Of a DNA stretch of 64,000 nucleotides, positions 16,053-21,310 are shown piece by piece. Within the stretch, counting starts at the first letter, position 1; the number at the start of each line of letters is the position of its first letter. The stretch is taken from assembly GCF_000021965.1 (NCBI RefSeq), contig NC_011832.1:2397242-2461241 (forward strand), given 5' to 3'. The stretch comes from Methanosphaerula palustris E1-9c. Lineage in GTDB: Archaea; Halobacteriota; Methanomicrobia; Methanomicrobiales; Methanospirillaceae. The notes beneath the pieces are model-generated. The model saw only the letters and a list, made by a program, of their open reading frames with translations, made no database searches and had not been told where the DNA came from. Position numbers and translations under genes: made by a program.

Positions 16053-17370
16053 TAGTAGTTCGCTAATTTTGTGAAACGTCTAAATATGCAGTTGATCATA
16101 AATTTATCAATAGAATAGAAAGGTCTATATCCTTTGCAGGCTGTCCCTTATGGTCTCACAAACCGGGAGCAGACCCTGCACAGATGTTTCTTGCGTTCGT
16201 CCGAAAGAATGTTGTGATCTGGCTGTAGCCGCTCTGAACTGTCATGTGAATATTCCTTTTCAGGGATCCCTGACCCAAACTACTATCTTTAGTACACTCG
16301 TTGAGATGGCCGTTGAGCAACAGTCTATCCATTCGATCAGCTCGCTTCTGGAGAAGAGTCCATGTGAAACTTCACTTCGGTATCATCTTGCCAAACTCCA
16401 CATAGATGACCTCGAAGCTACAAACTTGGCGATTCTAACTCATTCGATCACATCGGTCCTGATACCTGGAAAGGCATACAACGTTCGCCATTGATTACAC
16501 CAATGACCCGTATTATGGGACGGTTTCATCAGAAAACGAGGGATATGTCATTCAAAGTCGGCTCAAGAAATCAACAAACGAGTTCTATTCCTACGTTACG
16601 ATTTATGCGATCACCCAGGACCGCCAGGTAACCCTGGCGGTCTACCCTGTGACACAGGGTACATCCAAGGTCGCGTATATCATCCGCTGTCTGGATGCAA
16701 TCACGACAGCGGGTCTGAGGATCCAAGCACTCTATCTTGATCGGGAATTCTATGCACGAAAGGTAATCGACTTCCTGACAACCGTTCAGATCCCATTTAT
16801 CATCCCGGTCCGAAAACACAGTCGAGCGATGAAACAACCCCTGAACAGAACAAGATCACGGTTTGGGGAGTATATTATGCGTGGAAAACCCTCGCTTCGT
16901 CTGAAGATTGCGATAAATGTGAAGTATGCAAACGGAAAAAGAGTGAAACATGGGGTCAAGAACTTTGAATATGTGGTACATGGCATATCCTGGGATCCCC
17001 AGCGGATTCATAAGACCTACCGATCTAGGTTTGCGATCGAGTCGTCATACCGGATGCGGAACCTTGTCAAACCCAGAACCTCAACCCGCAATCCGGTGAT
17101 CCAATATCTCTTTGCTATTATCTCGTTTCTGATAAAAAATCCCTGGATAGCAGTGCTTTGGACACGATTCTCACCTGTGAAACAAGGTCCAGGAACCATT
17201 GAGATAGGCACGTTCAGATTTGATCAGTTCAAGTTGTTTGTCTGGGAGGCAGTAAGAGTAAACCTAAAGGTCGTGATAAAAATTCCTGCCCTCAGAAATC
17301 CAGTATAACTGAAGAAGATTTGGAACGCTGATGAAAGAAAAAGACACGAAGGATAATTAGCTAAGTACTG
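16053..17370 (+). mobile_element. ISH3-like insertion sequence with degenerate transposase
   Basis: About 1318 bp. The left end (TAGTAGTTCGCTAATTTT, 16053-16070) is an imperfect inverted match of the right end (ATAATTAGCTAAGTACTG, 17353-17370). The element is flanked by the 5-bp direct repeat ATACA at 16048-16052 and 17371-17375, the target duplication size I associate with ISH3 elements. The internal gene encodes a DDE transposase broken by a frameshift. The conserved flanking duplication suggests the insertion is not very old. Ends were found by eye and could be off by one or two bases. Confidence 0.75.
16150..17308 (+). pseudogene. ISH3-like DDE transposase, frameshifted
   Basis: The first part (16150 to about 16482) reads SIHSISSLLEKSPCETSLRYHL in one frame. 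From about 16484 the protein continues one frame over (FAIDYTNDPYYG ... to the stop at 17308). One extra base near 16483, between AAC and TTC, explains the break. The DDE triad candidates are D in AIDYTND, D in LYLDREFYARK and E in RFAIESSYRM, as in the ISH3/IS4-type transposases of haloarchaea and methanogens. The element is probably not autonomous unless frameshifting is programmed, for which I see no clear slippery site. Confidence 0.85.
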
Positions 17371-19227: not shown

Positions 19228-20007
19228 TCAGGTGATCTCCGGAACCGGGACCACAAAGCAGCAGTGATCGTCGCCCATCGCATAACAGGCCGTCTCCTGC
19301 GCAGTGATGGTCTGGTGATAATAATCAGAGAAGACGGCGCTGAGCAGCCCGGCATCGAAGGCGCAGGCCGGTCTACCAATATTTGGAAGATCTCCACACT
19401 CAAAGCAGTCGTACACATACAGGGTTATCGGATCGAGCGAGATCACCTCGACCCGGCCGAGCCGATGCTTCTCCCAGAAATGGGCCAGGTTCCCGAGCAG
19501 GGTCGCAAGGTCCGGGCCGGCGACCGTCGGGGCGATCGCCTCGCCGACGTGCAGTCCAGAAGAGAAGAGGAGGGGATCGATGTTGATCCCGTCAGCGAGG
19601 AGGGTGACCCTGAGGGTCTGAAAGAGCAGGCGAAAGAAATCGGGAGGGGGAGCATCAGCGCCGGCGTAGCCCATCAGGTAGGTGCTCAGGTCCGACCGGT
19701 GCAGATCTCCTGAGGAGAGATCCCCGAGATGGCGGGAGGCGAGCGAGAAGATCTTCTTCCGGCGGTCGACAGGATCAGTCCTGACCGTGAGAACCCCTCC
19801 TTCAACCAGCCCCTTCAGATGGACCGAGACCGTGGACTTCGCTCGCCCTGAACGGGAGACGATCTGATCGAAACTCAGGTCCTCCTCCTTCAGCATCGCA
19901 AGGATCCGCATCTGGATCATACCGCCGACCGTCCGAACCCCCTCCTCCGTCGAAAAGAGGGCGACGGCGAGTGTATGACCTTCCTCTCCTTGCTTCTTCA
20001 CTGACAT
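19228..20007 (-). CDS. Winged-helix regulator with V4R domain
   Basis: 259 residues. An ArsR-like winged helix lies at about 25-90 (RILAMLKEEDLSFDQIV...KSTVSVHLKGL), followed by a linker and a V4R (vinyl-4-reductase-type) domain at about 115-255. The cysteines YDCFECGDLP, PACAFDAG and DDHCCFVV fit the metal- or ligand-binding pattern of V4R domains. It is transcribed away from the flavodiiron gene, with direct repeats in the 79-bp spacer. It is probably a small-molecule- or redox-responsive repressor of fprA and itself (inference). The ligand is unknown. Confidence 0.85.
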   Translation of the reverse strand: MSVKKQGEEGHTLAVALFSTEEGVRTVGGMIQMRILAMLKEEDLSFDQIVSRSGRAKSTVSVHLKGLVEGGVLTVRTDPVDRRKKIFSLASRHLGDLSSGDLHRSDLSTYLMGYAGADAPPPDFFRLLFQTLRVTLLADGINIDPLLFSSGLHVGEAIAPTVAGPDLATLLGNLAHFWEKHRLGRVEVISLDPITLYVYDCFECGDLPNIGRPACAFDAGLLSAVFSDYYHQTITAQETACYAMGDDHCCFVVPVPEIT

Positions 20008-20028
20008 ACCGTAATCTACATATAGTAT

Positions 20029-20056
20029 TGTTCGTATATAATGGAATGTTCGTATA
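20029..20056 (+). promoter_or_regulatory. Direct-repeat operator candidate between V4R regulator and fprA
   Basis: TGTTCGTATA occurs at 20029-20038 and again at 20047-20056, an 18-bp period that places both copies on roughly the same DNA face. The repeats overlap TATA-like sequence (TATATAATGG, TATAATATAG), so a bound protein would compete with TBP on one or both divergent promoters. Confidence 0.6.
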
Positions 20057-20086
20057 ATATAGAACTAATTACCGGAGAAGAATCAG

Positions 20087-21310
20087 ATGAAAGCCACAGC
20101 AACAGAACTGGCCCCCGGCGTCTACTGGGTCGGGGCAATCGACTGGAACCTCAGGGAATACCATGGATACACGCTGCCCGGCACCACCTACAACGCCTAC
20201 CTGGTCGTCGGTACCGAGAAGGTTGCCCTGATCGACAACACCTATCCCGGGTTTGAGAAGCAGCTGCTCGCCCGGGTTAGCGAGATCATCGACCCGGCAA
20301 AGATCGATCTGATCGTAGCGAACCATGTGGAGATCGATCACTCCGGCGGACTGCCTGGCATGGCGAAACTGATCCCTGGCGTACCGATCTACTGCACCGA
20401 AGCTGCGGTGACCGGGTTCGGACGCCACTACGACACCACGAACTGGAACTTCGTCCAGACCAAGAGCGGGGACTCGGTGAATCTGGGCGGAAAGACGCTC
20501 GTCTTCCTCGAGGCGCCGATGCTCCACTGGCCCGATTCGATGTTCACCTACCTCGCCGAGGAGAAGATCCTCTTCTCAAATGATGCCTTCGGACAGCACA
20601 TCGCATCAGCGGCCAGGTTCGACGACGAGATCGGGAAGGACGAGGCACTCCTCCATGCCAAGAAATTCTTTGCAAACCTGCTCACCCCACTCGCCAAGAA
20701 GGTGCTCAAAAAGCTCGACGAGGTAGGAACCCTCGGGATCGAGATAAAAATGATCGCCCCAAGCCACGGAGTGATTTGGCGGTCCTACGTCGCCGATCTC
20801 CTCGGGGCGTACGTGAACTGGTCGAAGGGTGTCTCCAAGGACAAGGTCACAATCGTCTTCGACACCATGCACCACTCCACCGACATGATGGCCCAGGCCC
20901 TGGCCGAGGGTGTCATGGCCGAAGGGGTCGACGTGAAGGTCTGCATCCTCAAGGACGGCAAGGTCGAGGGGACGCACAGATCCAATATCGCCTCTGAGAT
21001 CTTGGACTCCAAGGCGGTGCTGGTCGGCTCCCCTACCCTGCAGGACGAGGTCTACCCAACCGTCGCCGACTTCCTCAGTTATCTGCGCGGACTGCGGCCT
21101 GGAAAACTTGAGCATAAGAAGATCGGGTTCGCCTTCGGTTCGCACGGCGGCAAGGGCGGGGCGATTCACTACATCACCGATTCATTGCGGACGGCAGGGA
21201 TAGAAGTGATCAATGAAGGCTTCGAAGTGCACTATCGCCCCGATGGTTCTGAACTCGACCGTTGCTTTGAGATGGGCCAGGACATCGCACGTAGGGTCAA
21301 AACCCTCTAA
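20087..21310 (+). CDS. fprA: FprA-type flavodiiron protein, F420H2 oxidase
   Basis: 407 residues. The N-terminal metallo-beta-lactamase-fold domain has the diiron ligands NHVEIDHSGG (HxExDH), MLHWPDSM, SNDAFG and PSHGVIW. The C-terminal flavodoxin domain (about 255-405) has the FMN phosphate loop DTMHHSTDMMA and GSHGGKGGA. In methanogens this enzyme oxidises F420H2 and reduces O2 to water, protecting the anaerobic pathway. The start at 20087 is preceded by GGAGAA. It is divergent from a V4R-domain regulator that may control it. Confidence 0.95.
   Translation: MKATATELAPGVYWVGAIDWNLREYHGYTLPGTTYNAYLVVGTEKVALIDNTYPGFEKQLLARVSEIIDPAKIDLIVANHVEIDHSGGLPGMAKLIPGVPIYCTEAAVTGFGRHYDTTNWNFVQTKSGDSVNLGGKTLVFLEAPMLHWPDSMFTYLAEEKILFSNDAFGQHIASAARFDDEIGKDEALLHAKKFFANLLTPLAKKVLKKLDEVGTLGIEIKMIAPSHGVIWRSYVADLLGAYVNWSKGVSKDKVTIVFDTMHHSTDMMAQALAEGVMAEGVDVKVCILKDGKVEGTHRSNIASEILDSKAVLVGSPTLQDEVYPTVADFLSYLRGLRPGKLEHKKIGFAFGSHGGKGGAIHYITDSLRTAGIEVINEGFEVHYRPDGSELDRCFEMGQDIARRVKTL

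Follow-up and report, generated by a model that had tools for sequence, protein, structure and literature searches.

A probable MsvR–fprA oxygen-defence switch with a composite operator in Methanosphaerula palustris

The stretch of Methanosphaerula palustris E1-9c DNA analysed here (64,000 nt, hereafter the window) very probably holds an MsvR–fprA oxygen-defence switch, with one composite operator controlling both the regulator gene msvR and the divergent F420H2 oxidase gene fprA; binding, repression in the reduced state and release are proposed by analogy with characterised members of the family. The switch is of a published kind, with a second palindrome that is degenerate in this species. 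Reduced MsvR dimers would bind the composite operator, made up of the palindromes P1 and P2, and would cover the msvR TATA box inside P1 as well as the fprA start region, which a conserved TATA box upstream of P1 would place over P1/P2. Oxidation of the V4R cysteines would then release or rearrange MsvR and derepress msvR and fprA, and the derepressed FprA would reduce O2 to water using F420H2. For this species, the papers searched yielded data on neither binding nor expression.

The two genes diverge from a gap of 79 nt (20008–20086), bounded by two start codons, that of msvR at 20007 on the minus strand and that of fprA at 20087 on the plus strand. The product of msvR scores 294.6 bits against the NCBIfam equivalog NF053755 (cut-off 220) and contains the Pfam domains MarR_2 (residues 31–83) and V4R (197–253), which confirms the winged-HTH and V4R domains assigned to the regulator in an earlier note on this DNA. 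The equivalog score, the N-terminal HTH with a C-terminal V4R, and three V4R cysteines spaced by 26 and 8 residues place it in the MsvR family. An MsvR protein search of the genome (E ≤ 0.001) revealed no second copy, the window copy being the only match. FprA is a two-domain flavodiiron protein (Pfam ODP and Flavodoxin_1) nearest to characterised F420H2 oxidases, its closest solved relatives being FprA of PDB 6frm (E 3e-134) and 2ohh (E 6e-127); a genome search with it returned the window copy, one relative of 34% identity and one short, weak match. Elsewhere in the window, at 16150–17308, nearby ORFs (at least 16649–17308) resemble a broken transposase, as judged by eye from their translations.

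Table 1. Features of the msvR–fprA locus (positions in the window; a dot marks features given no strand).
Feature	Position	Strand	Basis
msvR, 259 aa, N-terminal winged HTH (MarR/ArsR-like) and C-terminal V4R	19228..20007	-	NCBIfam, Pfam
Codons C215 to C249 of MsvR (set C215, E238, C241, C249)	19261..19365	-	invariant in alignment
Probable fprA TATA box ACATATAG, just upstream of P1	20018..20025	+	predicted
R1 profile match (G000:C1:2417268-2417308)	20027..20067	+	E 4.3e-11
TGTTCGTATA copy 1	20029-20038	+	exact match
P1, 16-bp partial palindrome TTCGTATATAATGGAA	20031..20046	.	relatives' consensus TTCGNATANNATAGAA
Probable msvR TATA box ATTATATAC, within P1	20034..20042	-	predicted from sequence
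TGTTCGTATA copy 2	20047-20056	+	exact match
P2, 16-bp partial palindrome TTCGTATAATATAGAA	20049..20064	.	matches published TTCGTAN4TACGAA box in many relatives
GGAG, probable fprA ribosome-binding site	20074..20077	+	predicted from sequence
fprA, 407 aa, F420H2 oxidase (flavodiiron protein)	20087..21310	+	PDB relatives, Pfam

The earlier note had reported two copies of TGTTCGTATA 18 bp apart in the short spacer between a winged-HTH–V4R gene and fprA. Both observations hold: 18 bp is the start-to-start distance, which leaves 8 nt between the copies, and the spacer spans exactly the gap between the start codons. These two are the only exact copies in the window, and the genome of 2,922,917 bp has four in all, the two outside the gap (L192, L193) both lying within long ORFs. 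When the gap was dinucleotide-shuffled 20,000 times, 137 of the shuffles held two identical non-overlapping 10-mers of any kind, so chance alone would account for such a pair in about 0.7% of cases.

Comparison with relatives changes the reading of the repeat itself. Their consensus reads TTCGNATANNATAGAA, then TG or similar, then TTCGTATNNTTACGAA. It amounts to a pair of partial palindromes, each 16 bp long and set in tandem every 18 bp, and a single repeat unit corresponds to just one palindrome arm. The direct repeat of the earlier note is therefore the pair of left arms; its regulatory element stands, and the simple direct-repeat operator has been set aside in favour of the composite. In the window, P2 keeps its left arm but has lost the CGAA of the right one, now AGAA; some genera show the opposite loss, their P2 having TTAG for TTCG on the left with the right arm kept. 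Because of the decayed right arm, the window lacks the published motif in its strict form (TTCGN7-9CGAA upstream of msvR, with neither arm damaged), and it is through homology of the composite site, as judged from sequence, that we name the element an MsvR operator.

The predicted core promoters are interleaved with the palindromes. In 41 of 58 msvR–fprA pairs the letters TATA occur in the 18 nt before P1, against a mean of 11.7 for mononucleotide shuffles, and their distance from P1 is nearly constant at 8–11 nt; P1 lies 43–56 nt (median 45) from the fprA start, except at L111, where this start is masked by N. The usual archaeal TATA-to-start spacing would put the fprA transcription start over P1/P2. 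On the opposite strand, the putative msvR TATA box stands about 27 nt from the msvR start codon, which fits a nearly leaderless message such as that described for msvR of Methanosarcina (accessible text of PMC3729527). This predicted layout, with its putative start sites, agrees with the published Methanothermobacter arrangement, in which boxes sit across the fpaA start site and the BRE/TATA of msvR (same source).

To gauge conservation, 232 genomes of the order were searched for the MsvR family, with matches over the cut-off in 135 genomes and none in 97; only over-cut-off matches were fetched. The 140 loci from this search and two from a single-protein scan of named genomes make 142 msvR loci, of which 141 are distinct (L147 is the same locus as L072). 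An adjacent, divergent fprA is present at 59 of the 142, and 83 have no adjacent fprA. By score, the composite operator is kept in 58 of the 59 divergent pairs of the order, which span 10 genera; the sole pair under the score, L052, does retain an unbroken TTCG-N8-CGAA, though with a spacing of 19 bp. Motif spacings were counted in a set of 58 pairs that keeps L052 and omits L111 (truncated by N, and counted among the 59). TTCG-N9-GAA occurs in 57 of these (shuffle mean 1.0), the TTCG/TTCG pair at exactly 18 bp in 43 (0.24) and TTCG-N8-CGAA in 40 (0.24); since the genomes are related, the counts are not independent. The earlier note had named absence of the repeat from relatives with the same gene pair as a refutation; with 58 of 59 pairs keeping the operator by score, its reading passes this test.

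Kinship-wide conservation of this kind is far stronger evidence for a putative regulatory element around TGTTCGTATA than the shuffle statistic. It also bears on the view that the repeats are chance AT-rich promoter sequence to which no regulator binds: the gap is indeed AT-rich, and a comparable 10-mer pair does turn up in a small fraction of shuffles, as given above. This view is already contradicted by the conservation, and a letter-reversed version (R2) of the site profile R1 described below matches 0 of 231 genomes, R2 being a control with no genome where a match is known. We find it scarcely credible that chance produced the element. As a separate observation, one msvR–fprA gap of 485 nt (L055, G061:C96) contains two operator copies (374–413 and 766–804), one per gene, as if an insertion or duplication had split a shared site.

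The operator is not confined to loci with fprA. Among the 83 msvR loci without an adjacent fprA, 43 score at least 12 of 15 for it, including six from genus g25 that have no P1 left arm and are doubtful, and the 18-bp TTCG pair is found at 36 of 84 loci without fprA, L111 being included in this total. Its retention at many such genes marks it as first of all msvR's own operator, and on this comparative basis the window element, beyond its link to fprA, doubles as a putative operator of msvR itself. Among operator-bearing loci, P2 has an intact right arm at 51 of the 58 msvR–fprA pairs and at 21 of the 43 msvR loci that lack an adjacent fprA; these counts are suggestive of a division of labour between P1 and P2, and are confounded by relatedness.

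Some over-cut-off MsvR relatives, in genus g25 of family f3 and others, have no recognisable operator upstream, and in this they depart from the literature, where known msvR genes are said to have one. Loci L118, L129, L133–L135, L137, L139–L141, L143 and L145 encode over-cut-off MsvR proteins with the invariant cysteines and show no recognisable boxes upstream. At other msvR loci without fprA (L046, ORF at 1022–2341 on the minus strand; L024, L037, L060, L068, L069, L074 and L075) msvR diverges from an ORF that resembles molybdopterin oxidoreductases (TDVICPFCGTLCDDLEV or similar), with Pfam applied to L046 only. We take the neighbour of the L046 type to be, probably, formylmethanofuran dehydrogenase subunit B; the operator at these loci would then face a methanogenesis gene.

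Sites away from msvR were sought with R1, a sequence-only profile trained on 32 msvR sites. Because the window contributed one of them, its own match (Table 1) follows by construction; no second place was found in this genome at E ≤ 10. Across 231 genomes of the order (E ≤ 0.01), R1 finds 108 places in 99 genomes, 94 of them at msvR and 14 elsewhere, and no place in the other 132. All 14 non-msvR places were fetched, and none had entered the training set. Seven (L178, L179, L180, L182, L188, L190 and L191) lie directly upstream of fprA, 10–22 nt before its first aligned codon; L182 and L190 are identical in their printed letters, and the seven come from only two genera, g24 (three) and g27 (four), and thus represent few evolutionary events. 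Two more precede rubrerythrin-family genes (L187 and L189, at 54 and 55 nt), and at L183 (2520–2545) a P2-type site immediately precedes a gene for hemerythrin, which may be an oxygen-binding target.

In 392 genomes sampled from the phylum, R1 finds six places outside the order, all of which were fetched. Three are at msvR: L218, L219, where msvR is divergent from a rubrerythrin gene, and L220, the Methanocella contig of the training site L146. One lies at fprA (L217) in genome G239, whose other copy is the msvR place L218; one precedes a rubrerythrin-family gene (L221), and L222 has no clear target. Taken together, the 17 non-msvR places (14 in the order, three elsewhere in the phylum) include eight before fprA, three before rubrerythrin-family genes and one before a hemerythrin gene, while five (L181, L184, L185, L186 and L222) have no oxygen-related neighbour. 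A wider regulon within this genome was considered and rejected: TTCGTAN4TACGAA with up to two mismatches occurs at 37 places versus 44 for the reversed control, which is chance level.

Operators directly before fprA and away from msvR independently support fprA as a target. They also weigh on the possibility that the site serves msvR autoregulation only and that fprA is a bystander in the common gap. Such an arrangement would fit the many operator-bearing msvR genes without fprA, as well as the finding, in the accessible text of PMC3729527, that Methanosarcina acetivorans MsvR binds the msvR promoter and does not bind upstream of the fpaA homologues there, from which it follows that fprA control is not universal in the MsvR family. 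However, the eight fprA places belong to eight genomes, the eighth in a family outside the order, and amount to about three independent cases; moreover, P2 lies on the fprA side, and at the four fprA-only sites of g27 R1 aligned only by its P2 half. We consider an operator for msvR alone improbable.

Control of both genes by one operator has a close precedent. The system is a known one, MsvR of Methanothermobacter having been reported to repress both msvR and fpaA: the reduced protein bars general transcription factors from both promoters, and its boxes comprise TTCGTAN4TACGAA and a third box, a partial direct repeat (PMC3729527, accessible text). As in the window, a V4R–winged-HTH regulator gene of Methanothermobacter thermautotrophicus is divergent from an F420H2 oxidase gene. 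There fpaA is the first gene of an operon that also contains rlp and rub, whereas the next ORF on the fprA strand of the window is a receiver-GAF-PAS signalling ORF, and the right arm of P2 has decayed in the window; the likeness is one of described layout.

MsvR of M. acetivorans shares with the window its family, autoregulatory boxes and a very short msvR leader, and the spacing of C215, C241 and C249 equals that of C206, C232 and C240 in the Methanosarcina protein. According to the accessible text of PMC3729527, it must be reduced to bind the promoter of its own gene, requires both boxes, and depends on the V4R cysteines, C206 most clearly; the thioredoxin system restores MsvR binding (PMC7278568, accessible text). 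Unlike in the window, fpaA is not a neighbour of its msvR. The first of these sources states that a CX2CX3H motif is absent from M. acetivorans MsvR, and all rows aligned here have CX2C followed by P (C201, C204, P208).

The sensor domain is strongly conserved. All 141 rows of the MsvR alignment (140 different sequences; L037 was omitted for an in-frame stop) keep C201, E203, C204, C215, E238, C241 and C249, so the V4R cysteine ligands noted earlier prove, as cysteines, invariant in the aligned family members. A phmmer comparison aligns MsvR 204–252 with MopR 144–192 without gaps (E 0.0046), setting C215, E238, C241 and C249 against MopR positions 155, 178, 181 and 189, which we take to be the exact zinc-site residues of MopR. 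MsvR thus has three Cys and one Glu at the equivalent positions. A profile of 25 sequences reaches MJ1460 (E 0.0037) and MopR (E 0.004), under many HTH-only matches, and MJ1460 and MopR also come first for the predicted MsvR fold, a moderate model built from three sequences (mean pLDDT 66.3).

In the accessible parts of the literature, MopR-type V4R domains bind zinc through three Cys and one Glu (PMC10715001), the DmpR ligands are Cys151, Glu172, Cys177 and Cys185 (PMC7264223), and zinc in MopR/DmpR/PoxR-type domains is described as keeping structural integrity (both sources). The cysteine spacing of DmpR equals that of MsvR, whereas the Glu precedes the second Cys by five residues in DmpR and by three in MsvR. 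The sensor domains of MopR, DmpR and PoxR resemble MsvR in the V4R fold and in the Cys-Glu-Cys-Cys set (from the MopR alignment); unlike MsvR, these proteins are phenol sensors, DmpR being an AAA+ sigma-54 activator, and the accessible parts of these sources describe no redox role for them.

This kinship raises the alternative that the V4R domain of MsvR senses a small molecule, as in MopR and DmpR, and not redox state, to which both the phmmer alignment and the ranking of the predicted fold lend some weight. However, published MsvR answers H2O2, DTT and the thioredoxin system, its V4R cysteines matter, and redox-dependent binding of Methanosarcina MsvR occurs in vitro with no ligand added (accessible texts of PMC3729527 and PMC7278568). 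Small-molecule sensing is, in our judgement, very unlikely. The earlier note had left the choice between a redox and a small-molecule switch; the regulator–element–fprA link and the redox reading are sustained by MsvR family membership and the comparative evidence, and the small-molecule ligand finds no support.

Returning to redox sensing, we propose that the redox cysteines of MsvR may form a Cys3-Glu zinc site. The accessible text of PMC3729527 mentions zinc for a predicted domain in its Figure 1 and in its references; a zinc site for these cysteines is stated in no title or abstract opening that was found, most subscription papers lying outside reach, and no priority is claimed. Oxidation of the zinc-bound thiolates, perhaps together with the adjacent CX2C pair, would collapse the V4R domain and free the operator. 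A fuller scheme, which we offer tentatively and do not expect to hold in every part, joins O2 sensing by a Cys3-Glu zinc centre common to phenol-sensor V4R domains with autoregulation through P1, control of fprA through P2, and a regulon that takes in rubrerythrin and hemerythrin in the order and a neighbouring lineage.

Methane-making strict anaerobes must sense oxygen, and MsvR is one of the few known archaeal thiol switches. The system is known from other methanogens, and what is new here is the comparative support across relatives, which defines the operator precisely, names a handful of targets and suggests a metal-site hypothesis for redox sensing by the V4R domain.
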